From: Acerihabitans arboris
Lineage (GTDB): Bacteria; Pseudomonadota; Gammaproteobacteria; Enterobacterales; Enterobacteriaceae
DNA: 64,000 nt
Assembly: GCF_010131535.1 (NCBI RefSeq)
Contig: NZ_WUBS01000007.1
Coordinates: forward strand, 1 to 64,000
Direction: 5' to 3'
This document shows, in pieces, positions 21,906-42,488 of the stretch (position 1 is its first letter; the number at the start of each line of letters is the position of its first letter). The position numbers and the translations under genes are program-made. Below the pieces are notes generated by a model. That model did not search any database and had not been told where the DNA came from. It saw only the letters and a list, made by a program, of their open reading frames with translations.

Positions 21906-23033
21906 TCATTCAATGCGGAATGCCTGTTCGATCATCTTCCGGCGCTGCGCCGGCGGATACTCAAGCAGTGAATTCTTACTATTGGATTTTTCCAGGCTGA
22001 CCGCCAGCTCCCGCCGGCTGAGCGGCAGATCGTCCCGCCAGAATGGGGCGATGGCGTGGCGGGTGATAAATTCAAGCAGATAACGCGCCGGGTTGTCCCG
22101 CCGGTCGGGGAACAGCCGGGCGGCCAATCCGGCCATCAGCGCCCGCTGCCGCGGCTGTTCGCTTTCCGCCAGCAGCGCCAGGAACGGCAGCAGCAGGCGG
22201 CCGCATACCTGCCCATGGTGATAGCTGCGCAGGGCGCCGACTTCGCCGGCGATGCCGTGGATCACCCCCAGCCCCGCCATGCTCAGCGTCAGGCCGCCCA
22301 GGTAGGACGCCTGCATGATAGCTTCGCGGGCATCATCATCGCGGTTTAACGCCGGCCAGGCCTCCAGGAAAAGACGGATGCCGGTCAGCGACATCTCACG
22401 CGACAGGGCGCTCGCCGTTTTGGACAAATAAGCCTCGAATAGATGGGTGAAGGCGTCGATGGCGCAATAGGCCAGGACGCGATCAGGCGCGCCGGCCAGC
22501 AGCTGCGGATCGAGGATTGCCACCTGCGGCACGAAGTTGTTGTGGCGCAGCGAGGCCTTGACCATATTGACCCGGGTGTCGGTGACAACGGCGTTCTGCG
22601 TGACTTCACTGCCGGTTCCGGCCGTGGTGGGTATGGCGATCACCGGCAGCGTTGCGCCGCTCACCCTGCTGTCGCCGACTTTTTCCATATAGCGCAGCGT
22701 CGGCAGCGGGTGCTCCACCAGGGCGGCAAACGCCTTGGCGGCATCCAGCACGCTACCGCCGCCGATGGCCACCACGCGCCGCACTTTACCGCGCCAGCGC
22801 GCAACCCACTGGTCAATATCCCGCGGCGACGCCTCGTGACCGACGGTCTCGGTGCCCACCAGCAACAATGCCAGCGTTTCCGCCAGCCCCGCGTGTACCG
22901 CGCCGCCAAGGAACGAACGGCAGCTGAACAATAGCGTCGGCTGCGGATCGGCCTCCAGCAAGGGAATCAGCTGGTTAATGCTGCCGGCGCCGAACCAGGT
23001 TTGCCGGTTGGCGATCATCAGGCTGGTAGTCAT
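21906..23033 (-). CDS. Iron-containing alcohol dehydrogenase
   Basis: The protein has 375 residues and the two domains of the group III (iron-activated) dehydrogenases. The N-terminal NAD(P)-binding part contains AIGGGSVLDAAKAFA and the pyrophosphate loop PTTAGTGSEVT. The C-terminal helical part contains the metal ligands Asp and His in CAIDAFTHLFEAYL, then His in GVIHGIAGEVGAL and His in RSYHHGQ. It oxidises an alcohol or reduces an aldehyde or ketone. ATG 23033 has AGGAAAGAAC upstream. It is the last gene of the minus-strand catabolic set but is separated by 357 bp from the thiolase, so it may have its own promoter. It could oxidise a hydroxy intermediate to the ketone that feeds the beta-keto acid cleavage enzyme. 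Confidence 0.9.
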   Translation of the reverse strand: MTTSLMIANRQTWFGAGSINQLIPLLEADPQPTLLFSCRSFLGGAVHAGLAETLALLLVGTETVGHEASPRDIDQWVARWRGKVRRVVAIGGGSVLDAAKAFAALVEHPLPTLRYMEKVGDSRVSGATLPVIAIPTTAGTGSEVTQNAVVTDTRVNMVKASLRHNNFVPQVAILDPQLLAGAPDRVLAYCAIDAFTHLFEAYLSKTASALSREMSLTGIRLFLEAWPALNRDDDAREAIMQASYLGGLTLSMAGLGVIHGIAGEVGALRSYHHGQVCGRLLLPFLALLAESEQPRQRALMAGLAARLFPDRRDNPARYLLEFITRHAIAPFWRDDLPLSRRELAVSLEKSNSKNSLLEYPPAQRRKMIEQAFRIE

Positions 23034-23390
23034 GTTCTTTCCTCGGCGCGCGGTAAAACCACAGCATAATGCAGCGTTGTCAGGCAGACCAGGGCTTTTG
23101 TCATCGACGGCGACCCTGGCCGGCGATGTTTTCCCGGCAGCTTTGCTAGGGCGCGATGGCATGCCGCAGTGAAATTTGCCATCGGGGCTGAGACTCGCCG
23201 CACCCATGAAAGCGGGTCATGGACATGTGATCATCGGGTTCGTTACCGATATCGGTTAACACAAACACGCGGGGCCTGGAACGGAAAGGTTTTGGCGGCT
23301 GAGGCGGTAAATAAGCTAAGAAAGGTAATTACAATGATTTTTTGGACGCAGGCGCATTATTACCGCGATGATTCCTGCGGTTAACCGCGG
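23034..23390. other. Gap between iron alcohol dehydrogenase and thiolase
   Basis: These 357 bases contain no supported gene. A perfect 12-bp palindrome GCGGTTAACCGC lies at 23379-23390, right behind the thiolase stop, and a second symmetric patch ACCGATATCGGT lies near 23250. Either may be an operator for the alcohol dehydrogenase. No T-run terminator is seen. Confidence 0.35.
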
Positions 23391-24569
23391 CTACAAACGC
23401 TCGATAATCATCGCCACGCCCTGCCCGCCGCCGACGCAAAGCGTGGCCAGCCCCAGCGTTTTGTCCCTGGCGGCCAGCGCATGCAGCAGCGTCACCAGGA
23501 TGCGGGCGCCGGACGCGCCGATGGGGTGGCCGAGCGCGATGGCGCCGCCGTTAACGTTGGTGTTAGCCATATCCAGCTTCAGTTCGCGGCTGACGGCGAT
23601 AAACTGGGCGGCAAAGGCCTCGTTGGCCTCAATCAGATCGAGATCCCCGACCGTCAGCCCCGCCTTGCTTAACGCCAGCCGGGTCGCCGGCACCGGGCCC
23701 ATCCCCATCACCGCGGGATCGACCCCGCAGGCGGCATAGCTGAGGATGCGCGCCAGGGGTTTAACCCCCTGGGACCGCGCCCAGTCCTCGCTCATCACCA
23801 CCAGCGCCGCGGCGCCGTCGTTAACGCCGGACGCATTGCCGGCGGTTACCGAGCCGGCGGGATCAAATGCCGGCGGCAGCGCGGCCAGGCTTTCCGCCGA
23901 GGTATTCGCGCGCGGATGCTCATCCACGGCAAAAATGCTGTCGCCCCGCTTGCCTTTCACCGTAACCGGGATAATTTCTCGCCGGAAGGCGCCACTCTCA
24001 ATCGCCGCCGCGGCCCGCCGCTGCGAAAGCAACGCCGCCTCATCCTGATCCTGGCGGCTGATATGCCAGCGTTTGGCGACATTCTCCGCGGTGATCCCCA
24101 TATGGTAATGGTTGATGGCGCAGAACAGGCCGTCGTTGACCATGACGTCGGTCACCGACTGGTCGCCCATGCGGTATCCCCAGCGGACATTGTTCAGTAC
24201 ATAAGGCGCCGCCGACATGTTTTCCATCCCACCCGCCAGCGCCACATTCGCGTTACCGGCGGCGATGCCCTGCGCCGCGTAAATCACGCTGTTCAGGCCG
24301 GACCCGCATACCATGTTAACGCTGGTCGCCGGCGTGGCATCCGGCAGCCCCGCCAGCAGCAGCGCCTGGCGGGCGGGGTTTTGTCCCAGTCCCGCCTGCA
24401 GTACGTTACCCAAAATCACCTCATCGACCGCCGAGGGCTCAAGGCCGGCCCGGCCGACCGCTTCCCTTATCACCAGCGCCCCCAGCTCGGGCGCGGTGAT
24501 GGCGCCCAGGCTGCCGCCAAATTTGCCGATAGCGGTACGCACCGCGCTGGCGATAACAAGTGATGTCAT
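23391..24569 (-). CDS. Acetyl-CoA acetyltransferase (thiolase), first of two
   Basis: This 392-residue thiolase has the acyl-enzyme cysteine in [11 protein letters not shown] (Cys88), the His in [15 protein letters not shown] (near 349) and the second Cys in LCVGGGQG (near 379). Length and motifs fit biosynthetic or degradative acetoacetyl-CoA thiolases. It splits acetoacetyl-CoA with CoA into two acetyl-CoA, or the reverse. Fifteen bases separate it from the MFS gene upstream. Together with the CoA transferase it gives the standard acetoacetate-to-acetyl-CoA route. The set has another thiolase at 27273, which may handle a different acyl chain. Confidence 0.93.
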
Positions 24570-24583
24570 AATTGCCTCTTAAG

Positions 24584-25942
24584 TTAGCTATTATCAGCGG
24601 CGGTACCGGCTTCAACCGGCGTCACGTCGGTCAGCCAGATCAGCAGCAGCGCCACGGCCCCGACCGCCACCAGCAGCAGGTAGGCGCCGGTATAGCCGCC
24701 CAGATACGCCAGGCCGAAGGCCAGGATGGAAAATGCAAAGCAACGCACCACGGATTGAATGGGATGCACGATGCCGAGGGCGCGAACGTAGAGACGGCGC
24801 GGGAACTTGGTGGCGATAAGCGATGTGCTTAAATTGGTGGCGCCGGGCAGGCTGAAGCCAATCATCAGCAGCGAGACCCACAGCGTCACGCCCTGGTGGG
24901 CGAACAGGTTGATCACCACCGCCGCCATCCACCAGCCGGTGTAGGCCAGCAGCGCGCGCTTGACCCCGATCCGTTGATTGAGCCAACCCCAGCCGTAGGC
25001 CCCCAGGGTGCCGAACAGCGCCGACACGGACATATAAAAGATGGCGGTGTTCAATTCGTAGCCCAGCGCCATCAGCCGGGGCACGATCTGGCTGACCACG
25101 CCGACCAGCATGATGTAGATGGCGCCGGTAGAGAGCCCCATAAACCAGACGTCGCGCATGCGCAGCAATTGCCAGACGCCCAGCGGACAAACATAGCTGT
25201 CGTGCCGGCGCACCCGCTCGCCCACTTCGGCGGCGGTGACCCGATCGTTATCCGGGGCCAGGCCGACGTCCTCGGGTTTATTGGCGACGAACAGCAGCAC
25301 CAGCGCGGCCATGATAAACATCAGCAGCGAGATACCCCAAAAGCCACGGCTCACCCCCAGCCAGATAAACAGCGCGGCCAGCGCGGGGACAAAAAAAGCG
25401 CTGGAAAAGGTCTGACCCACCGTGCACCAGCCCAACGCCAGCCCGGCCTTGCGCACAAACCAACTGGTCATCACGGCGGTGCCGCCCACGTAGGCAAAAC
25501 CGGTGCCGAAGAAACATACGCCGGCGAACAGCAGGGTAAAGCCGATCAGCGATCCGCAGTGCCCCAGCAGGCCGAAGCATATTCCGCAGGCGATTAAGCA
25601 AAGGATGATATTGAATTTGGCCCCTTTCTTCTCGCACAGCCAGGCGCACAGGGGGCCGGCGGGAATAGATGCCCAGGAGGCCGGCGTCGCCAGCGCCAGC
25701 AGTGTGTTGTAGTCCAGGCCGTAAGTGCGCGACAGCGCGGGCAGCATCACGTTCAGGCCATGGGTCACCGCGCCGGCGGCCAGCCAGAACATTACCGCCT
25801 GGAAGACGATAAGGACCCAGCCGCGCGCGCCGAAACCGTTGCCGGCGGCGGTGCAGGGAGGCAAATCCTCCCGGCTGGGACAGTCTGCGATTTTTTCTAA
25901 CACAATGTTATCTAACGCAATATTATTTTTGTTCCCAGTCAT
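24584..25942 (-). CDS. MFS transporter, probably uptake of the pathway substrate
   Basis: This 452-residue protein has twelve hydrophobic segments after a hydrophilic N-terminal tail of about 40 residues. The MFS loop pattern is seen in GYELNTAIFYMSVSALFG then WGWLNQRIGVKRALL, and the first half has AWLCEKKGAKFNIILCL. The general look is of an organic-anion symporter or antiporter. It lies 22 bp behind the CoA-transferase beta subunit and 15 bp before a thiolase, so it belongs to the catabolic operon and most likely imports its carboxylate or ketone substrate. Confidence 0.88.
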   Translation of the reverse strand: MTGNKNNIALDNIVLEKIADCPSREDLPPCTAAGNGFGARGWVLIVFQAVMFWLAAGAVTHGLNVMLPALSRTYGLDYNTLLALATPASWASIPAGPLCAWLCEKKGAKFNIILCLIACGICFGLLGHCGSLIGFTLLFAGVCFFGTGFAYVGGTAVMTSWFVRKAGLALGWCTVGQTFSSAFFVPALAALFIWLGVSRGFWGISLLMFIMAALVLLFVANKPEDVGLAPDNDRVTAAEVGERVRRHDSYVCPLGVWQLLRMRDVWFMGLSTGAIYIMLVGVVSQIVPRLMALGYELNTAIFYMSVSALFGTLGAYGWGWLNQRIGVKRALLAYTGWWMAAVVINLFAHQGVTLWVSLLMIGFSLPGATNLSTSLIATKFPRRLYVRALGIVHPIQSVVRCFAFSILAFGLAYLGGYTGAYLLLVAVGAVALLLIWLTDVTPVEAGTAADNS

Positions 25943-25964
25943 AAAATTCCATCCCCGCGGCGTA

Positions 25965-26609
25965 TCACGCCGGCATAACGGCCAATCGCCCGGCGACGAT
26001 CAGCCGGGGTTCGACCTGGCGCTGGATATCTTCGGGCGTTAGCCCTTCCAGCAGTTCAACCAGCACCAACCCATCCTGCGTGACGTCAATCACACACTGC
26101 TCGGTGACGATATGATCCACGCAGCCTTTGCCCGTCAGGGGGTAGCTGCATGCGTTGACGATTTTCGGCTCGCCCTGCCGGGTACGGAGTTCCATGGTGA
26201 TGATCACCTTGCGGGCGCCGTTGACCAGATCCATCGCCCCGCCCATGCCGAAGACCCGACCGGGCTGCGCCCAGTTGGCCAGATCGCCGTTTTCCGCCAC
26301 CTGCAGCCCGCCCAGCACCGCGGCGGCCAGCTTGCCGGAGCGAACCAGGGCGAAGGATTCGGCGCTGTCAAACGCGCTGGCGCCGGGCGCCGGCCTAAAG
26401 CGCATGGCGGTGGCATTGGAAAACCCTTCCACCGCCAGCATTCCCGAGACCAGAGGCCCCATGCCCACCAGGCCGTTTTCCGTGTGGATCATGACGCCGG
26501 GCAAGGCGTAATCACTGCACAGGCTGGGAATGCCGATGCCCAGGTTAACCACGTCGCCGGCCGAGAAATAGCCGGCGGCGCGCCGGGCTATCCTGTCACG
26601 CGCGTTCAT
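25965..26609 (-). CDS. 3-oxoacid CoA-transferase, beta subunit
   Basis: This 214-residue protein is the B subunit of a SCOT/AtoA/PcaJ-type CoA transferase. It carries VNLGIGIPSL (residues 21-30) and the catalytic glutamate in HTENGLVGMGP (Glu44), which forms the glutamyl-CoA thioester. The enzyme moves CoA from succinyl-CoA or acetyl-CoA to acetoacetate or another 3-oxo acid. AAGGAG is eight bases upstream of ATG 26609. The gene overlaps the alpha subunit by 14 bases, so the two are translated together. Confidence 0.94.
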   Translation of the reverse strand: MNARDRIARRAAGYFSAGDVVNLGIGIPSLCSDYALPGVMIHTENGLVGMGPLVSGMLAVEGFSNATAMRFRPAPGASAFDSAESFALVRSGKLAAAVLGGLQVAENGDLANWAQPGRVFGMGGAMDLVNGARKVIITMELRTRQGEPKIVNACSYPLTGKGCVDHIVTEQCVIDVTQDGLVLVELLEGLTPEDIQRQVEPRLIVAGRLAVMPA

Positions 26610-27270
26610 TGGCGAGCTCCTTGGTTGTCAAAATGTTGCTTACATAAACGCCGGGAGTGACAATGCTATCCAGGCTCATCTCATCCACGTCCATCAGCAT
26701 GTCGGCCTCCACCAGCGTCAGGCCTGCCGCTTTCGCCACCAGCGGGTTAAAGTTGCGCATGGTGCCGCGATAGGTCAGGTTGCCCAGCGGATCGGCCGTA
26801 CGGGCGCGGACCAGGCTGATATCCGCCCGCAGCGCCGTTTCCAGCAGATAGGCCTCGCCGTCCACCATGATCAGCTGTTTGCCTTTCTCCACCACCGTGC
26901 CGATGCCGGTTTTGGTCAACACCCCGCCCAGCCCCGCGCCGCCGCAGCGTATGCGCTCAGCCAGGCTGCCCTGCGGCACCAGTTCCAGTTCAATTTTTCC
27001 GGCGTCCACCAGCGCCACCGTTTCGGTATTACGGCCGATATGCGACGCAATCAGCTTGTCCACCAGGCCGAGATGGATCAGGCGGCCCACGGTCAGATCC
27101 GCGTCGCCGGAATCGTTGGATATCAGCGTAAAATGCCTAGCGCCGCTGTCTATCACACATTGAAGCAGGCGATTCGGGACGCCGTGGTTGGCGAAACCGC
27201 CGCACATCAGCGTCTGTCCGTCTTTAAACAGACGGGTGATATCGTCCGCGGACGTTAATTTTCCCAACAT
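26596..27270 (-). CDS. 3-oxoacid CoA-transferase, alpha subunit
   Basis: This 224-residue protein is the A subunit of the same CoA transferase. CGGFANHGVPNRLLQCV is the oxyanion and CoA-binding loop (GGF.. ..P), NDSGDADLTVGRLIHLGLV is the usual second element, and GSLAERIRCGGAGLGGVLT is the family signature near the middle. Alone it is inactive; it pairs with the beta subunit encoded next. ATG 27270 has GAGGG six to seven bases upstream and begins right at the end of the second thiolase gene. In this context it should activate the acetoacetate released by the beta-keto acid cleavage enzyme. Confidence 0.94.
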   Translation of the reverse strand: MLGKLTSADDITRLFKDGQTLMCGGFANHGVPNRLLQCVIDSGARHFTLISNDSGDADLTVGRLIHLGLVDKLIASHIGRNTETVALVDAGKIELELVPQGSLAERIRCGGAGLGGVLTKTGIGTVVEKGKQLIMVDGEAYLLETALRADISLVRARTADPLGNLTYRGTMRNFNPLVAKAAGLTLVEADMLMDVDEMSLDSIVTPGVYVSNILTTKELANERA

Positions 27271-27272
27271 GA

Positions 27273-28442
27273 TTATTCCCTCGTCAGCAGCACCGCCACA
27301 CCCTGCCCGCCGCCGACACAAAACGTGATAACGGCGTTGTTCAGATGGCGACGCCGCATCTCATAAACGGTTTTCGCCGTCAGGATGGCGCCGGTACCGG
27401 CCAGCGGATGCCCCAGGGCGATAGCGCCGCCGTTGGGATTAACGCGTTCCGGATCCATGCCGATCTCGTGAATACAGGCCAATGACTGGGCGGCGAAGGC
27501 TTCGTTCAATTCCCATAAATCAATGTCCTTGACGGCGCGGCCGGTCTGTTTCAGCAGCTTCGCGGTGGCGGGAATCGGGCCAAGGCCCATGACGTTGGGA
27601 TCGACACCTACCGCCGCGTAGCCGCGGAATACGGCCAGGATATCCAGGCCGGCTTTTTCCGCCGCGCCGCGTTCCATTAACACCAGCGCGCCTGAGCCGT
27701 CGCTCATGGGCGAACTGTTGCCGGCGGTGACCACCCCGTCGCTGCTGAAACTCGGCCGCAGGGCGGCCAGGGTAGCCAGGGAACAATCGGCGCGCACCGA
27801 TTCGTCACGGGTAACAAGGGTTTCCCGTCCCTTTTTGTCCATCAGCGGCACCGGGACAATTTGCTCGTCAAAGCGCCCCGCCTGCCAGGCGGCGCTGGCG
27901 AGCCGGTGGCTGCGCACGGAAAATTCATCCAGCTGCGTACGGGTGATTTCATAACGCCGGGCGATATTCTCGGCGGTTATGCCCATGGAGGGGTTGCCGA
28001 TGCGGTCCGGCGACGTGTGGATGTCGACAAAGCGCGGCGGTAGTACCGACCAGGCGGTGTCGGTCTTTTCCAGCGACCAGGTACGGCGCGAGTCGCTTTC
28101 CACCCCGCCGGCGACAATGACCTCGGCGAAACCGGCCATGATTTGCATCGCGCCGTAAGCCAGGGCATTGAGCGAGGCGGCGCACTGACGGTCGAGCGTA
28201 ATTCCCGGCACCGCCAGGGGCAGTCCGGCCTCCAGCGCCACCATACGGCCCATATTATTGATTTCGTTATTCATTAAATTGGCATAAATAACATCATCGA
28301 TGCGCGCCGGATCGATTTTCGCCCGGCGCACCGCCTCCTTGACGGTCAGCGCGCCGAGAACATGCGCCGGCACCGGCGCCAGCGCGCCGCGACAGCGGCC
28401 AATAGGCGTACGAACCGCGGAAACAATGACTGCTTCTCTCAT
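27273..28442 (-). CDS. Thiolase, acetyl-CoA or beta-ketoadipyl-CoA type, second of two
   Basis: This 389-residue thiolase has Cys87 in ITLDRQCAASLNA, the His in [16 protein letters not shown] and the second Cys in FCVGGGQG. The LDRQC.AS pattern differs from the first thiolase (VNMVCGSG) and is seen in degradative thiolases that accept longer 3-oxoacyl-CoAs. ATG 28442 has AAGGTGG close upstream. The stop is two bases from the CoA-transferase alpha start, so translation is coupled. Two distinct thiolases in one operon suggest that the pathway makes acetoacetyl-CoA and another 3-oxoacyl-CoA, or acetoacetyl-CoA from two branches. Confidence 0.92.
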   Translation of the reverse strand: MREAVIVSAVRTPIGRCRGALAPVPAHVLGALTVKEAVRRAKIDPARIDDVIYANLMNNEINNMGRMVALEAGLPLAVPGITLDRQCAASLNALAYGAMQIMAGFAEVIVAGGVESDSRRTWSLEKTDTAWSVLPPRFVDIHTSPDRIGNPSMGITAENIARRYEITRTQLDEFSVRSHRLASAAWQAGRFDEQIVPVPLMDKKGRETLVTRDESVRADCSLATLAALRPSFSSDGVVTAGNSSPMSDGSGALVLMERGAAEKAGLDILAVFRGYAAVGVDPNVMGLGPIPATAKLLKQTGRAVKDIDLWELNEAFAAQSLACIHEIGMDPERVNPNGGAIALGHPLAGTGAILTAKTVYEMRRRHLNNAVITFCVGGGQGVAVLLTRE

Positions 28443-28489
28443 AACCACCTTCTTTATCCAGATTCAATCCGCCCGCCGGAACGGGTTCG

Positions 28490-29335
28490 CTAGCGCCGCA
28501 GCGCGGGGATGCCCAGCATGGCCCTGGCCTGGGCGGAGGTGGCCACCTGTTTGCCGGATAAGCGCACGGCCTGCGCCGCGCGTTCCACCAGCTGTGCATT
28601 GGTGGCCTTGATGCCTTTGCTGAAATAGACATTGTCTTCCAGTCCCACCCGCACATGCCCTCCCAGCGCCAGGGCGGCAAACAGGATCGGCAGATGGTGC
28701 CTGCCGACGCCGAAGGCTGACCAGGTGGCGTCGGCCGGAATATGCGCGACCAGGTAGAGCAGGTTCTCCACCGTGGCGGGCATGCCGCCCGGCACGCCGA
28801 GGCAGAATTGATAATGCAGGGGGGACGACAGTTTGCCCTGCCCGGCGAAATAGTCGGTTATGCCCAACATGCCGCTATCGAAGATTTCGATCTCCGGCTT
28901 GATCGCCCGCTCCGTCAGGATTTCACCCAGTTGCCCCAGGAACTGGGGCGAGTTGATAAATACGCCCCCGGGCATCCAGTTAAACGACCCGGCGTCCCAG
29001 GACGCCATTTCGATGCCATCCAGACCGGCGACATGCGCCATCCGCTGCGCGTCGCTGGCCCGACTGTCGCCGGAGGTGGTGCAGTTGATGATCACGTCGC
29101 AGTCGTGGTGGCCGCGCAGCAGGCGGATCGTGTGGGCAAACTTATCGCGGTCCATGGTGCCCAACCCGCGATCGTCGCGCATATGGAGATGCACGATGGC
29201 GGCGCCCCGCTGCCAGCACTGATAAGCGTCCGCGGCAATTTCTTCCGGTGTCAGGGGAATATGTTCATTGATATCTTTTGGAGTTACCGCGCCGGTCAGG
29301 GCGGCGGAAATAATAACGTCGTTTCCTGTGTTCAT
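28490..29335 (-). CDS. Beta-keto acid cleavage enzyme (BKACE, DUF849 family)
   Basis: This 281-residue protein is a TIM-barrel beta-keto acid cleavage enzyme. VIISAALTGAVTPKDINEH begins strand 1; IVHLHMRDDRG (the zinc-binding His-x-His), VIINCTTSGD, FDSGMLG and HVRVGLEDNVYFSKGI are family signatures. Known members use acetyl-CoA to split a beta-keto acid into acetoacetate and a shorter acyl-CoA, as with 3-keto-5-aminohexanoate, dehydrocarnitine and triacetate. ATG 29335 has GGAG seven bases upstream. Within the operon it is followed by a thiolase and a CoA transferase, exactly what is needed to recover the acetoacetate. The side-chain specificity cannot be read by eye. Confidence 0.93.
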   Translation of the reverse strand: MNTGNDVIISAALTGAVTPKDINEHIPLTPEEIAADAYQCWQRGAAIVHLHMRDDRGLGTMDRDKFAHTIRLLRGHHDCDVIINCTTSGDSRASDAQRMAHVAGLDGIEMASWDAGSFNWMPGGVFINSPQFLGQLGEILTERAIKPEIEIFDSGMLGITDYFAGQGKLSSPLHYQFCLGVPGGMPATVENLLYLVAHIPADATWSAFGVGRHHLPILFAALALGGHVRVGLEDNVYFSKGIKATNAQLVERAAQAVRLSGKQVATSAQARAMLGIPALRR

Positions 29336-29570
29336 AGACCCACTCCCGCGCATAGCCATTAATGTTAAATAAGCCGGCATCGCGCAATATGCAGGCTGTA
29401 AATTTAGTTTCGCCACCTATTTCATGGTCCGGCGGTTTTTATTTACCGCCGCCTGCTTGAGAAAGATGTTGAATTTTACATGTGACGATCCCCGGCGATT
29501 AAAATAAATAATCGGCCCATGGCGATAAGCGATCTTTATTATTTCCCGGGTCTGCCGGGACCGTCGGCCC

Positions 29571-30566
29571 TTACTTTATTTCGTTTTCTTCCTGTCCGCC
29601 GCCCAGCCGTGGACGAACGACCTTGCCTTTTTTCTCGGCGGCCATGACAAGTTCGGCCTCTTCATGCGCCCAGTTCCAGTAGTTGACTTCATGAGGCGAG
29701 TGCTCGGTGGCGGTCACGAACATTTCGGTGGCGAAGGCGTTGCGCAGCTCGTTGGCGATGTCTTCCTTCCAGGCCTTGCGCAGTTGCTGCGTGGTGATGC
29801 GCCGGGTAACGCGGGTGCCGGTGCGCATGATAAGCTCGGCGATTTCCCGGGCCCGGTCATAGCATGCTTCCGTGTCAGGGCAAATTTCGTTGACCATGCC
29901 GAGGGACAAGGCCTTGCGGGCGGTGATGATCTCGCCGGTCAGCTCGGCGTAGGCAAATCTCTTGCGGCCCATCAGCTCGCGCCAGGCAATCTGGATGCCG
30001 TCGCCGGGCACCATGTTGACCCGAAAGTGCATGTCGGTGGTCCAGGCGTCCTCGGTGCACAGGGTGATATCGCTGAACAGCACCAGGTCGGTGTGGAAGG
30101 CGGCGCCGTTCCATACGCCGATGGTGGGAACCTCGATATCGAAGACCTGGCCTTCGATGTCGTTGGTGCCATCATAATATTGATACTCGTACATCTTCCA
30201 CGCTTCTTCCGGCGCGGAGGCGAACTCGGTGGCCGGCTGCCATTTCCCCTGCCCATCCAGCCGGCCGATGCCCTTCATAAAGTCCTTGCCGGTTCCGCCG
30301 AGGATGATGACCTCGTTTTCCGGATCCCGTCCGGCCCAGTCGAAGAAATAATGCAGGGCCTGGTGCGCGGGGGCTCCCCACTGCAGGCTGTCGCCGTTGG
30401 TATGCAGCCGGGCTTCGAGGATGCCGTTCGTGCGCTTCATGGTGAAACAGTGTTTGAGTTTTTCCGCATATTCTTCAAATGGCATAGGGGGAATGGTGCC
30501 CAATTCCTTATGTGACATTTCTTTGCGTTTTCCGTGATCAGATTCATAATTGGCTCTAATCGTCAT
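29571..30566 (-). CDS. Crotonase-superfamily hydrolase resembling 6-oxocamphor hydrolase (beta-diketone hydrolase)
   Basis: The 331-residue protein has a crotonase core at about residues 42-240: VIILGGTGKDFMKG, IEVPTIGVWNGAAFHTDL, VPGDGIQIAWRELMG and ITARKALSLGMVNEI. It lacks the enoyl-CoA hydratase oxyanion and glutamate pattern and instead follows Rhodococcus 6-oxocamphor hydrolase. Its catalytic His45, His122, His145 and Asp154 (as I recall them) align with His68, His158, His180 and Asp189 here, with the same nine-residue step between the last two. Such enzymes break a C-C bond between two keto groups by hydrolysis, without CoA. A strong AAGGAG precedes ATG 30566. It is the first gene of the catabolic set, 235 bp before the BKACE start. 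The C-terminal extension (about 60 residues) is charged. Confidence 0.82.
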   Translation of the reverse strand: MTIRANYESDHGKRKEMSHKELGTIPPMPFEEYAEKLKHCFTMKRTNGILEARLHTNGDSLQWGAPAHQALHYFFDWAGRDPENEVIILGGTGKDFMKGIGRLDGQGKWQPATEFASAPEEAWKMYEYQYYDGTNDIEGQVFDIEVPTIGVWNGAAFHTDLVLFSDITLCTEDAWTTDMHFRVNMVPGDGIQIAWRELMGRKRFAYAELTGEIITARKALSLGMVNEICPDTEACYDRAREIAELIMRTGTRVTRRITTQQLRKAWKEDIANELRNAFATEMFVTATEHSPHEVNYWNWAHEEAELVMAAEKKGKVVRPRLGGGQEENEIK

Positions 30567-32995: not shown

Positions 32996-34537
32996 ATGCA
33001 TGTCAATATCATTCATGAAATGCTTCAATGGCTGGAATTATATTTGGAAAAGGGCCTGTCGCTGGATGCGGTCTCCGAAAAGGTAGGCTACTCCAAATGG
33101 CATTTGCAGCGGGAATTCAAAAAAAAGACCGGCCGGGTACTCGGCCACTATATCCGCGAACGCAGGCTGTCCAAAACCGCGCTGGCGCTGCGCCTGACGC
33201 ATCGTTCGGTATTGAACATCGCGCTGCACTATAACTTCGATTCGCAACAGACGTTTACCCGTGCGTTTAAACGGCAGTTCGGCATGCCCCCCGGCAGCTA
33301 CCGCCGGGGAAATATCGCGGATATGACCGAGATGTGCCCGCCGATTCAACTGCCGGCGATTGCTCCCCCGGAACCTGAGTTTATCCATTTGCCCGGCAAG
33401 CAATTACAGGGCGTGACGCATCGGTTTTCCAGCACATTGGAGCAGTATCATCATCAGCAGGAGCGACAACGCCGGCTATTCTGGGAAAGCTACCTGGCTA
33501 AAATGGATAGCCTACCGCCGGTAGTTTATGGCCTGCGCCGTTCGCAGCCCAGCAGGGACAAGGATGATGAACTGGTTACGCAGTTTGCCACCGCGCTATC
33601 GGCAGACGAGACCCTGGGCGACGCATCCTCCGGCGACGCTATCTATATCCAGCCAGGACAATATGCCCTGTTTCGTTATGTTGGCGGCCTCGACCGATTG
33701 CAGGATTTCATTTTGTCGCTGTATAAAAGCAGCCTCCCGTCCTATCAGCTGATTGGCACCGGGTGTTCATACAAGTTCGGCGGCAAAGGCGGCAACCAGG
33801 CCATCGCCGCGGCCAAGGCGGGGGCCGGCGTGGCGTTCCTGGGCGCCGTGGGCGCGGACGACAACGGCCGGTTCCTGATCGCAACGCTGCGGGATTGCGG
33901 CGTCGACACCACGCATATCGAAACTATCGGCTCGATAGCGTCCGGCATGAGCGTGGCCATGACCGACGCCGAAGGTGATTATGGCGCGATAGTGGTCTCC
34001 GCCGCCAATACCCGCATCAATACGGACAGATTAGCGCATGATGACGTCTGGTCGGGCGTCGGCATGCTGATTTTACAAAACGAAGTGCCGGAAAGCGTCA
34101 ATTTATCCGCCGCGCGGGAAGCCCGCAGGCGTAAGATCATGGTGTGTCTAAATGCCGCGCCCGCCACCGCGCTTTCCGCTGATTTCGAACGATGCATCGA
34201 CGTATTGGCGGTCAATTCGGTGGAGGCGCGCGATATGTCCGGCGTGGCGGTAAACGACCTTGATTCAGCCGGCGAGGCGGTCTTAGCCTTAAAAGCGCGG
34301 TTCCCCATCGTGATGGTCACCGCCGGCGGGCATGGAGTCGCATTTTCCGATATCGCTGATGCTTATGCGTTTTTTCCAGCGGAACCCGTAGAACTGGTCA
34401 GCACTCACGGCGCCGGCGATTGTTTTATGGGCACATTTTGCCAGGCGTTTAATGACGGCGCACCGCTCGGCGAGGCGATTAAGGCCGCCAACCACGCGGC
34501 GGCAAAACACGTTTCCCAGCCCAAGACCGATTCGTAG
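32996..34537 (+). CDS. Chimeric protein: AraC/Rob-type regulator fused to an N-terminally truncated PfkB sugar kinase
   Basis: The single 513-residue frame has two unrelated parts. Residues 1-105 are a MarA/SoxS/Rob-type tandem helix-turn-helix (LSLDAVSEKVGYSKWHLQRE, FDSQQTFTRAFKRQFGMPPG), and 120-255 are a GyrI-like effector domain that breaks off at SSLPSYQLIGTG. From about residue 261 the sequence is a PfkB/ribokinase (FGGKGGNQAIAAAKAGAGVA) running to the catalytic THGAGDCFMG and the C-terminus. About 40 N-terminal kinase residues, including the first strand and the Asn/Asp that hold the sugar, are missing. The layout is best explained by a deletion that joined two neighbouring genes in frame near 33755-33780. 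The DNA-binding part may still work; the kinase probably does not. Confidence 0.8.
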   Translation: MHVNIIHEMLQWLELYLEKGLSLDAVSEKVGYSKWHLQREFKKKTGRVLGHYIRERRLSKTALALRLTHRSVLNIALHYNFDSQQTFTRAFKRQFGMPPGSYRRGNIADMTEMCPPIQLPAIAPPEPEFIHLPGKQLQGVTHRFSSTLEQYHHQQERQRRLFWESYLAKMDSLPPVVYGLRRSQPSRDKDDELVTQFATALSADETLGDASSGDAIYIQPGQYALFRYVGGLDRLQDFILSLYKSSLPSYQLIGTGCSYKFGGKGGNQAIAAAKAGAGVAFLGAVGADDNGRFLIATLRDCGVDTTHIETIGSIASGMSVAMTDAEGDYGAIVVSAANTRINTDRLAHDDVWSGVGMLILQNEVPESVNLSAAREARRRKIMVCLNAAPATALSADFERCIDVLAVNSVEARDMSGVAVNDLDSAGEAVLALKARFPIVMVTAGGHGVAFSDIADAYAFFPAEPVELVSTHGAGDCFMGTFCQAFNDGAPLGEAIKAANHAAAKHVSQPKTDS

Positions 34538-39840: not shown

Positions 39841-40950
39841 ATGGAAAAAGATATACTGACTACGTCCCAGGCCGCGCATTTGCTCGGTATTTCTGTACGC
39901 ACCGCCCAGTTGTTCATGGAAGGCGGGACCTTAACCTCGTGGAAGACCCCTGGGGGTCATCGCCGCGTGTACCGCGCCGATGTCCTGGCCTTTATGGCGA
40001 AGAAGAAAGATCATTCGCCGGCGTTTTCATCAGCGCGGGTCGTCCTGCTCGCTTCGCCGGCGCGCCGCCCGCTGCTTGAAGGGCTGCTGTCCACGGTCGG
40101 CGAATGCGCCGTCGAGGCCTACGGGGACGTCTACGCGACCTCTTTCGCCATCGGCTACCGCTTACCGGCGGTGGTGGTGGTCGATCTGGCCGACGCGCGC
40201 GCTGAGCGGCGATCCTTGTTGTATCACCTGGCCGACCATCCCGCCCTGGGACAGACGCGGCTGGTGGCCGTGGGCCGCGCCGACGCCATGGCAATGGCAC
40301 CGGATCGCGCCCCGTTGCCCGTCCGGGTTGTGCCGCCCGAGCAGCTCCCGGACGCGATTCTCACCGCCTTAACTGATGCCGACGCCCCCTTGGAGCACTT
40401 TGAATTCCCGTTGTCTTTCCCCCTGGCGGACAATGAAGGCCAGCGCCTCGTGGCGGTGGATCGTTCCGGTTTGGTGGATACGGCGCCCGAGGAAGCTTTC
40501 GATCGTCTGACCTGGCTTGCCGGTCAGAATTTGCGGATGCCCATCGCGCTGATGACGCTGCTGACCCCTACGCGCCAGTGGTTTAAGTCACGCCAGGGGC
40601 TGGAACTCACGCAAACTCCGCGCAGCTGGGCTTTCTGCAATCACACCGTCCTGCAAAAAGGGGTCTTCGCAGTAGAGGACCTGTCGCGCGCGACGCTTTT
40701 TGCCGACAACCCGGCGGTCGCGAACTCCCCCCACTTCCGGTTCTATGCCGGCGCTCCGGTAGTCGATCCCGATGGCTTTGCGTTGGGGTCATTGTGTGTA
40801 ATGGATTACCAACCGCGCGCGCTGAACGCCACGCAGGAGCAAACGCTGCTCGCGCTGGCGGGGTTGGCTTCCGACGAGGTCAGGCTGCGCGCCGCCAATC
40901 GCCAGTTCCGCTGGGCCCGTGATATGCTGGAGCGCCGGCAGCAACATTGA
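39841..40950 (+). CDS. HTH_17 (excisionase-type) regulator with receiver-like and GAF domains
   Basis: The protein has 369 residues and three parts. Residues 1-52 are a MerR/excisionase-type winged helix (TTSQAAHLLGISVRTAQLFM, ending in TPGGHRRVYRADVLAFM). Residues about 64-180 look like a response-regulator receiver fold (ARVVLLASPARRPLLEGLLS; AVVVVDLADAR with a possible Asp; VRVVPPEQL where the usual Lys-Pro pair is changed). Residues about 215-355 are a GAF domain of the type found near signalling kinases (SWAFCNHTVLQKGVFAVEDL, YAGAPVVDPDGFALGSLCVM). It could sense a small molecule or redox state and directly bind DNA. It is divergent from the GMC oxidoreductase, the probable target. The receiver assignment is tentative. 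Confidence 0.78.
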   Translation: MEKDILTTSQAAHLLGISVRTAQLFMEGGTLTSWKTPGGHRRVYRADVLAFMAKKKDHSPAFSSARVVLLASPARRPLLEGLLSTVGECAVEAYGDVYATSFAIGYRLPAVVVVDLADARAERRSLLYHLADHPALGQTRLVAVGRADAMAMAPDRAPLPVRVVPPEQLPDAILTALTDADAPLEHFEFPLSFPLADNEGQRLVAVDRSGLVDTAPEEAFDRLTWLAGQNLRMPIALMTLLTPTRQWFKSRQGLELTQTPRSWAFCNHTVLQKGVFAVEDLSRATLFADNPAVANSPHFRFYAGAPVVDPDGFALGSLCVMDYQPRALNATQEQTLLALAGLASDEVRLRAANRQFRWARDMLERRQQH

Positions 40951-41495
40951 GCAGTGGCGCGATCGCCGGACGATCGCGTTTTCACACGGCTGGCTATCGC
41001 CGCGCATCTTCGCCCATCATGCCATGCCCTGCGCCGACGGGCTGGACCGCCAATCGCTGTATGTGTGGCTGGAGCAACGGTGCGGCTGCCGGATCGTCGG
41101 CGCATGGCCCAGCCCCTGGAATTCGGCCAGGGGAGCGTACGGGATCGTTTTTGCCGCCTGCCCCACCCTCCGGCGGCAACGCTGAAAATACCCATGGCAT
41201 CACCAGACCCTTTCATTAAATAAATGTTATTGATTTGTGATGTCGCTCATCCACACCTTTCTGTCACTGCCATGATCGGACAAGAGCTGGCAATGGCATA
41301 AAGGCGGCGTACCGCCCTTGGTCCTAGAGTCATGATAACGCCTTCCCGGGAGGTTAATGCTTGTGATTACCGGCCATAACCTCGCAGCAACCCCGTCCCC
41401 GCGATCGCAAGTGCGCCGGGCGTCACGATCGTGCCGCATCAGTTTTAATACCCTGTATTTTCCATGCATTATTATGATCAGCTGGAGTACATACG
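40951..41495. other. Gap upstream of the LsrB/RhaS-type ABC operon
   Basis: These 545 bases contain open stretches in several frames, as expected of GC-rich DNA, but none has a good start with a known family. The part from about 41220 to 41495 is less GC-rich and should hold the promoter of the sugar transporter operon. I see no terminator or clear operator. Confidence 0.35.
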
Positions 41496-42488
41496 ATGAA
41501 ATTAAAACGAATTCTCAGTTGTACCCTGATGTTGTCCTGCCTGGCGCTGGCGGGCACGGCCTACGCCGAAGTCAAAATCGCGCTGGTGGCCAAATCGCTG
41601 GGCAACGGCTTCTTCGAGGCGGCGAACGTCGGCGCGCAGCAGGCCGCCAAAGAGCTTGGCGATGTCAAAGTGATTTATACCGGCCCCACCACCACCACGG
41701 CGGAAGCGCAGATTGAAGTGCTTAACGGCCTGATTGCGCAAGGGGTGGATGCTATCGCGGTGTCCGCCAACGACCCGGACGCCCTGGTGCCGGTGCTGAA
41801 AAAAGCCATGCAGCGCGGCATCAAAGTAGTGTCCTGGGATTCCGGCGTGGCCAAGGAAGGCCGTCAGATACATCTCAATCCGTCCAGTAACGACCTGATC
41901 GGCCAAATGAATATCCAGCTGGCGGCGGATGCCGTCGCGGCGCTGGGCCTGCAAAAAGGGGACGCGGCGATATTAAGCGCCACCCCTACGTCGACTAACC
42001 AGAACCTGTGGATTGCCGAAATGAAAAAGGTGTTGCCGAAGTACCCTTCGGTGAACCTGGTCACGGTCGCCTACGGCGATGACCTGTCGGATAAAAGCTA
42101 CCGCGAGACCATCGGCCTGCTGAAGACCTACCCCAACCTGAAGGTCATTATTTCCCCTTCGTCGGTGGGTATCGTGGCCGCGGCCCAGGCGGTCAAGGAC
42201 CAGGGTAAAATCGGCCAGGTGTATGTGACCGGCCTTGGCCTGCCGTCGGAAATGGCCGGCGCGGTGAAATCCGGGGCGACCAAAAGTTTCGCCATCTGGA
42301 ATCCTATCGACCTCGGTTATGCCGCTACCTATATCGCCTATGATTTGGTCAAGGGCAAGACCAAGCCCACGCAGGCCAATATGGGACGGCTGGGTCAGGT
42401 GCAGCTGGATGCGGACGGCAATGGCGCGATGTCCAAGCCGTTTGTCTACGACGCCAGTAATATCGATCAGTATTCTAAAATATTCTGA
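41496..42488 (+). CDS. Periplasmic sugar-binding protein of the LsrB/RhaS type
   Basis: This 330-residue protein has a Sec signal peptide (residues 1-24, ending AGTAYA) and a periplasmic-binding-protein-like I fold. IALVAKSLGNGFFEAANVGA, IYTGPTTTTAEAQIEVLNGL, DAIAVSANDPDALVPVLKKA and VVSWDSG correspond closely to the autoinducer-2 binder LsrB and the rhizobial rhamnose binder RhaS. A rhamnose-like deoxysugar, another pentose-like sugar or AI-2 could be the ligand. It is the first gene of a four-gene ABC operon. A hairpin behind it (42497-42530) may keep its level above that of the membrane parts. Confidence 0.9.
   Translation: MKLKRILSCTLMLSCLALAGTAYAEVKIALVAKSLGNGFFEAANVGAQQAAKELGDVKVIYTGPTTTTAEAQIEVLNGLIAQGVDAIAVSANDPDALVPVLKKAMQRGIKVVSWDSGVAKEGRQIHLNPSSNDLIGQMNIQLAADAVAALGLQKGDAAILSATPTSTNQNLWIAEMKKVLPKYPSVNLVTVAYGDDLSDKSYRETIGLLKTYPNLKVIISPSSVGIVAAAQAVKDQGKIGQVYVTGLGLPSEMAGAVKSGATKSFAIWNPIDLGYAATYIAYDLVKGKTKPTQANMGRLGQVQLDADGNGAMSKPFVYDASNIDQYSKIF

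Follow-up and report, generated by a model that had tools for sequence, protein, structure and literature searches.

How tannin and flavonoid rings are broken down without oxygen bears on how much carbon peat stores and on what becomes of polyphenols in guts, as argued in PMC10470551. The closest described system, the anaerobic phloroglucinol route of Clostridium scatologenes, is a pathway of PGR, DPGC, TfD and TAL, in which DPGC is the Mn-dependent, cyclase-family ring opener (PMC10470551). Here we describe, in a window of 64,000 nucleotides from Acerihabitans arboris (the whole stretch of DNA that was analysed, on contig 54 of an assembly totalling 5.64 Mb), an operon of seven collinear minus-strand genes (30566-23391). 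As in the C. scatologenes pathway, a BKACE would act on a proposed 3,5-dioxo acid and is accompanied by a CoA transferase, a thiolase and an MFS transporter; unlike that pathway, the putative ring opener is not DPGC but a crotonase resembling 6-oxocamphor hydrolase (OCH), and an extra thiolase is present. We give about an even chance to the reading that this operon serves to degrade, independently of oxygen, a phloroglucinol-type six-membered ring with oxygen at carbons 1, 3 and 5. What may be new here, and we consider the balance of probability level on this point too, is a second, non-orthologous ring-opening variant of phloroglucinol-type degradation, with a substrate that we infer from sequence.

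In the proposed route, the crotonase would hydrolyse the C-C bond between two ring ketones in a retro-Claisen reaction, giving a 5-oxo acid that either is, or would be oxidised to, a 3,5-dioxo acid. The BKACE, together with acetyl-CoA, would split this acid into acetoacetate and a 3-oxoacyl-CoA, after which the CoA transferase would activate the acetoacetate and the thiolases would complete the conversion to acetyl-CoA. A BKACE needs a beta-keto acid, and if the operon is to close without beta-oxidation genes, the acyl-CoA released would again have to be a 3-oxoacyl-CoA. Of the simple rings that we weighed up, a 1,3,5-oxygenated one fits best. Many other lineages link a flavoprotein, an SDR or both to the operon; these might serve in ring or side-chain reduction, the ring then being reduced before it is opened, as in the known pathway, or in alcohol oxidation. 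The window copy may borrow the flavoproteins of a second operon copy in the same genome, or its ring may need no reduction.

Family and active sites of the crotonase and the BKACE

The crotonase (331 aa; 30566-29571, minus strand), whose start is preceded by a strong ribosome-binding site, aaggag, is the proposed retro-Claisen C-C hydrolase for a ring 1,3-diketone. Its best matches in the PDB are 6-oxocamphor hydrolase (CamK; 1o8u, E 1.9e-32) and the Anabaena beta-diketone hydrolase (ABDH; 2j5g, E 5.5e-30), with an enoyl-CoA hydratase third at E 1.7e-12. CamK residues W40, H45, H122, H145 and D154 correspond to W63, H68, H158, H180 and D189 of the window protein, and these are unvarying in the 38 rows of the OCH alignment, across which 150 of the 331 positions are invariant. 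We take His45, His122, His145 and Asp154 of CamK to be catalytic; the title of entry 1szo denotes a His122Ala mutant structure, and in ABDH all three histidines and the aspartate are present, while Phe takes the place of Trp40. A Foldseek search with the AlphaFold (AF2) model of the crotonase (pLDDT 87) returned OCH and ABDH structures at all of ranks 1-12 (TM-score by target 0.88-0.91), followed by hydratases. The fold and catalytic residues are thus shared with CamK and ABDH (TM-score by target 0.91 and 0.88, respectively), but the window protein is about 31% identical to them, has extra residues inserted around positions 100-125, is extended at its C-terminus in a conserved manner, and is set apart by its BKACE neighbourhood. 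By sequence and by modelled fold it lies nearer to CamK and ABDH than to enoyl-CoA hydratases and is predicted to be an OCH-type beta-diketone hydrolase. An earlier note on this DNA had proposed a hydrolase that breaks a C-C bond between two ketones, and the sequence, residues and fold of the crotonase speak for that family assignment, with the activity a prediction.

The same relationships lend some support to another cyclic 1,3-diketone as substrate, such as a camphor-like terpenoid or the cyclohexane-1,3-dione derived from resorcinol, given that the nearest characterised relative is 6-oxocamphor hydrolase and that ABDH, to judge from the structure title, was solved with a 3-oxocyclohexyl ligand. 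However, cyclohexane-1,3-dione would be hydrolysed to 5-oxohexanoate; as this is not a beta-keto acid, the BKACE would be idle. The ten proteins scanned here include no camphor enzyme besides the crotonase. We consider such a substrate unlikely.

The BKACE (29335-28490, minus strand, with a likely start; DUF849, PF05853, 313 bits) shares the fold family of Kce and keeps the equivalents of Kce His46, His48 and Glu230, which we take to be the metal ligands; the positions that we take to be catalytic in Kce are conserved as well. It differs from Kce in carrying Val at the position of Glu14. According to PMC10470551, Glu14 of Kce binds the substrate amino group, and Trp16 replaces it in the TAL of C. 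scatologenes. Val or Met occupies this position in the OCH-linked BKACEs looked at, which do not include those of loci L032 and L054, and Trp in the BKACEs of loci L116-L119, which adjoin cyclase genes. In the BKACE tree a group of 25 rows, 24 of them from OCH-bearing contigs, has support of 91/85; a wider group of 31 rows (87/80) adds L116-L119 and two unlinked rows and leaves Kce outside. The AF2 model of the window BKACE has a pLDDT of 92.6. Crotonase and BKACE are two small soluble enzymes, which makes the substrate directly testable.

Operon layout and distribution

The crotonase and BKACE genes are spaced by 235 bases, and downstream of the BKACE the genes are tightly packed, with gaps of 47 and 2 bases, an overlap of 14 bases, and then gaps of 22 and 14 bases (gene starts were picked by us within the open reading frames). 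In order, and all on the minus strand, these are the thiolase thl2, an extra paralogue (28442-27273; TIGR01930, 429.7 bits against a cut-off of 240.55); CoA transferase subunit A, ctA (27270-26596; TIGR02429, 205.8 bits, cut-off 128.5); subunit B, ctB (26609-25965; PF01144, with TIGR02428 at 237.8 bits, slightly below the cut-off of 243.55); an MFS transporter, presumably the substrate importer (25942-24584; PF07690, 103 bits); and thlA, a thiolase of the acetoacetyl-CoA thiolase type (24569-23391; TIGR01930, 492.3 bits). Upstream of the crotonase, a promoter-like match at 30816-30789 is at chance level (five found in the region, 3.7 expected), and no regulator directly adjoins the window copy. 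The seven collinear genes claimed by the earlier note are all confirmed in family by profile or PDB matches, profile scans having covered ten proteins around the operon, and their order is conserved elsewhere. The operon is real and conserved, and it is probably catabolic.

We found 37 OCH loci, spanning at least four phyla, in a single pattern-based scan of the contigs of GTDB species. Counts by locus cover up to 9 kb on each side of the OCH gene, often cut by contig ends, with queries from the window and its relatives; genome-wide counts cover 36 OCH genomes (the genome of L021 left out), and many OCH-bearing genomes are metagenome-assembled genomes (MAGs). The hosts include Brenneria, Sodalis, Klebsiella indica, Kosakonia, Tolumonas, the Pasteurellaceae Necropsobacter and Lonepinella koalarum (a koala isolate), Telmatospirillum, Cohaesibacter, Breoghania, Rhodoplanes, Spirochaetes, Chloroflexi, Deltaproteobacteria and Actinomycetota. 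A second, non-homologous route, if real, would thus predict more organisms capable of such degradation, among Enterobacterales, Pasteurellaceae, Telmatospirillum and other Alphaproteobacteria, spirochaetes and actinomycetes. The crotonase is full length and 75-94% identical in 35 of the 37 loci, with a partial copy in L054 (89%) and a broken one in L055 (45%); identity of 75% or more in 35 loci, together with the 150 invariant positions, indicates one conserved, specific function. The operon that contains the broken copy, in Enterobacter sp. EA-1, is itself fragmented, and the BKACE of one congener of the window genome (G005, C1:2206814-2207621) is split over two frames; both may reflect decay or sequencing errors.

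The partners of the crotonase recur with it: BKACE in 26 of the 37 loci, thl2 in 25, thlA in 23, both thiolases in 20, and ctA and ctB in 24 each, with an MFS transporter at least 50% identical to the window's in 18. The BKACE directly follows the crotonase in 15 loci, and thl2 follows the BKACE in 18. Genome-wide, a BKACE is present in 35 of 36 OCH genomes (fragments in G094), and among 60 relatives of the window genome it occurs in all six with OCH (as fragments only in G033) and in five of the 54 without, although five of the six OCH-bearing relatives share one genus, G033 being the exception. The sole OCH genome without a BKACE is a deltaproteobacterial MAG of 1.3 Mb, G070, so small that the absence is weak; there OCH shares a gene run (L030:7929-16097) with an acetoacetate-CoA ligase (898.5 bits, cut-off 639), an acetylene-hydratase-like molybdenum enzyme and another OCH-like crotonase (36-37%). 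In plasmid records the best match to OCH was below 60% identity in all 154 that matched, and the open-licence PubMed Central matches listed include no paper linking such a crotonase to a BKACE.

Other linked genes are patchier. LysR regulators occur in 20 of the 37 loci, SDR c7 in 15, a flavoprotein in 14 (with an SDR in four), HpaB in six and OYE in five, so that a flavoprotein or SDR is linked in 25; some flavoproteins near OCH have NrfC/NrfD-like partners, and relatives of a Phenol_MetA_deg-type porin are found in 10 loci. SDR c7, a candidate phloroglucinol reductase, matches general SDRs among the best 60 and 51 PDB rows at E 1e-30 and is about 34% identical to the SDR of a canonical-type phloroglucinol cluster. 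For the OCH-linked flavoproteins the closest family is vinyl phenol reductase VprA, with scores of 291.7, 283.7 and 374.8, all below the cut-off of 600. The spirochaete loci L034, L042, L043, L048 and L049 carry HpaB-family and BaiCD/OYE-type flavin enzymes.

Canonical-type phloroglucinol clusters and the proposed substrate

Clusters of the canonical type are also found among these bacteria. Loci L116 (Brenneria izbisi) and L117 (an Enterobacterales MAG) carry genes for an MFS transporter, CtfA, CtfB, a cupin-like protein (read by eye), an SDR, HADH, a cyclase, a thiolase and a BKACE, a complete-looking set much like that of C. scatologenes, and both of these genomes have an OCH cluster as well; by layout and family their proteins would be PGR, TfD, DPGC and TAL. 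L118, L119 and L121 hold a cyclase and a BKACE with parts of the remaining set. With L116 proteins as queries, relatives of PGR (at 40% or more), TfD and DPGC were found in none of the 37 OCH loci. The L116 cyclase has close relatives in three of the 36 OCH genomes and weaker ones in two, and the window genome has none at E 1e-20.

The two kinds of cluster nonetheless share other families. The porin beside the L117 cluster is 60% identical to that of the L021 OCH locus, and in the thiolase tree the single thiolase of each of L116 and L117 is placed within thlA, whereas thl2 occupies a separate half from thlA and the canonical-cluster thiolases. The shared porin and thiolase families suggest that the two kinds of cluster handle related substrates, and also that they divide the work between them. 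Taken with the BKACE tree, the pocket residue and the fold search, they strengthen the core of what the earlier note had drawn, the opening of a 1,3-diketone by an OCH-like enzyme followed by BKACE, CoA transferase and thiolases; its dehydrogenase step did not survive (see below), and the substrate in this scheme is a deduction.

Several observations weigh against a phloroglucinol-type route. The window copy lacks a flavoprotein, an SDR, a dehydrogenase and a ring reductase. Genome-wide, at E 1e-60 or better, SDR c7 is present in 20 of 36 OCH genomes and a c14-type flavoprotein in 10, neither of them in the window genome; given this patchiness, neither redox step is universal. A cluster with both a cyclase and a BKACE also occurs in five of the 36 OCH genomes, where plain phloroglucinol may already be served, and the 37 loci of the pattern-based scan include no Firmicute. 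The window BKACE falls short of every curated NCBIfam cut-off: its best model is that of lysine Kce (NF052387, 284.2 against a cut-off of 382), and it scores 175.9 bits against NF053538, 3,5-dioxohexanoate:acetyl-CoA acetone transferase (cut-off 430). Lastly, the support of the wider BKACE group is modest (87/80), with Kce on a long branch.

That best model, below its cut-off as it is, also favours a lysine- or carnitine-type BKACE module coupled to an ordinary enoyl-CoA hydratase. Yet the OCH-linked BKACEs looked at (L032 and L054 not among them) have Val or Met in place of Kce Glu14, the OCH catalytic residues are kept, and OCH and ABDH fill the first twelve Foldseek ranks, so we regard this module as very improbable. 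Two of the outcomes that the earlier note had named as refuting it lose ground accordingly: a lysine-type signature, with Val at Glu14 and NF052387 falling short, and ordinary acyl-CoA hydratase activity, with the catalytic residues retained.

The absence of redox enzymes from the window copy is compatible with a direct hydrolysis, in which the crotonase would act on the triketo tautomer of phloroglucinol to give 3,5-dioxohexanoate (C6H6O3 + H2O = C6H8O4), the seven genes being complete with no redox enzyme. The conserved core holds none, PGR, TfD and DPGC relatives are missing from all 37 loci, and the window copy does without flavoprotein, SDR and regulator. In L032 and L054, moreover, a BKACE directly after OCH has NF053538 as its best model (374.9 and 373.4 bits, below the cut-off of 430). 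These BKACEs, like those of the Rhodoplanes cyclase clusters (L121; 409.3 and 407.2 bits), are of another type than the window's. Against direct hydrolysis, it leaves the flavoprotein or SDR linked in 25 loci unexplained, and we know of no enzyme that hydrolyses free phloroglucinol directly; its probability appears low to us.

A substituted ring is hinted at by the second thiolase, the Val pocket and the coexistence of the OCH operon with canonical-type clusters. The substrate would then be an alkyl-phloroglucinol, for example a 1,3-diarylpropan-2-ol from flavan-3-ols, with thl2 cleaving a long 3-oxoacyl-CoA and the CoA transferase freeing the shortened acid. Two thiolases stand against one in L116 and L117, thl2 is a separate paralogue that comes right after the BKACE in 18 of the 37 loci, Val replaces the Trp of TAL, and flavoproteins with NrfC/NrfD-like partners lie near OCH. 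PMC11887054 describes a flavin enzyme of Eggerthella lenta, Cber, that opens the C ring of catechin, and Flavonifractor plautii breaking the A ring to a hydroxyvaleric acid, which would suit such a substrate. On the other side, no aryl-chain enzyme was identified, the OCH members include marine bacteria and actinomycetes, and no Firmicute is among the 37 loci of the pattern-based scan, so F. plautii seems to use other means. A substituted ring is in our view a minor possibility. Slimmer still are the prospects of its broadest form, in which a widespread pathway would split the A ring of alkyl-phloroglucinols, for instance diarylpropanols made from catechins and condensed tannins, and the operon would encode its lower half: the crotonase would open a dearomatised or still aromatic (triketo-tautomer) ring, the BKACE would remove acetoacetate and thl2 acetyl-CoA, and a shortened acid of the hydroxyvaleric type would remain. 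If true, this would show where phenyl-valeric acids and valerolactones come from.

Returning to the phloroglucinol-type ring in general, two further companions were considered. The DAPG/phloretin hydrolase family PF18089 occurs in four of the 36 OCH genomes (in two copies in Lonepinella) and in none of 14 controls and is a weak candidate. Linked molybdenum enzymes were rejected as transhydroxylases: that of L124 (Lonepinella) is nearest to TMAO reductase (7l5i, 1451.6 bits, against 198.6 for pyrogallol hydroxytransferase), and that of L030 to acetylene hydratase (2e7z, 391.1).

The second copy and flanking genes

The genome contains a second, larger OCH-BKACE operon (C23:88999-91078, within C23:76000-95500, locus L056), which the earlier note had missed. 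Its order is LysR, OCH to thlA, a flavoprotein, an NrfC-like iron-sulphur protein, an NrfD protein, an MFS-like protein (by eye) and an OprB-type porin; the flavoprotein is assigned its FMN_bind and FAD_binding_2 domains from its counterpart in L024 (Sodalis sp. dw_96), to which it is 90% identical, and a second FAD flavoprotein lies across LysR on the other side. The flavoproteins and NrfC/NrfD-like module suggest that quinol drives the reduction of an organic acceptor located outside the cytoplasm. Between the two copies, dN and dS were 0.044 and 0.80 for OCH, 0.110 and 0.86 for BKACE, 0.113 and 0.89 for thl2, 0.105 and 0.64 for ctB, and 0.213 and 1.39 for thlA, the comparison leaving out ctA and the MFS gene; purifying selection acts between them. 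The window copy was probably gained by transfer, because it is closer to Brenneria than to the genome's own second copy: its MFS transporter and thlA are each 83% identical to Brenneria, against 70% and 72% to the second copy, and in the thlA tree the window sequence joins Brenneria (99/96), while that of the second copy joins Sodalis.

The 357 bases between thlA and an iron alcohol dehydrogenase gene (21906-23033, minus strand) hold a PF07632 gene remnant of 35 codons (23185-23289, minus strand; 27.2 bits, cut-off 26.8; profile positions 1-21 of 268), which stands outside the pathway and would fit an insertion junction. The earlier note had counted this dehydrogenase among the set, as the enzyme oxidising a hydroxy-ketone to a beta-keto acid. 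It occurs in none of the 37 OCH loci, and it is present at 79-85% identity in all five other genomes of the genus, including one with no OCH match (G003). Its distance from OCH is about 630 kb in G005 and about 15 kb in G004, where both are on one contig (OCH 24503-25495, dehydrogenase 40868-41995); in G001 and G002 the two are on different contigs. In G002, G003 and G005 its surroundings gave no match to any other gene of the OCH cluster. Genus-wide, never beside OCH in those loci and separated from the operon by debris, it is ruled out as the hydroxy-acid dehydrogenase and judged a bystander, and the step drawn for it falls. Farther along the window, an open reading frame on the plus strand (32996-34537) apparently fuses the start of an AraC-type regulator to a ribokinase-like end, as read by eye.

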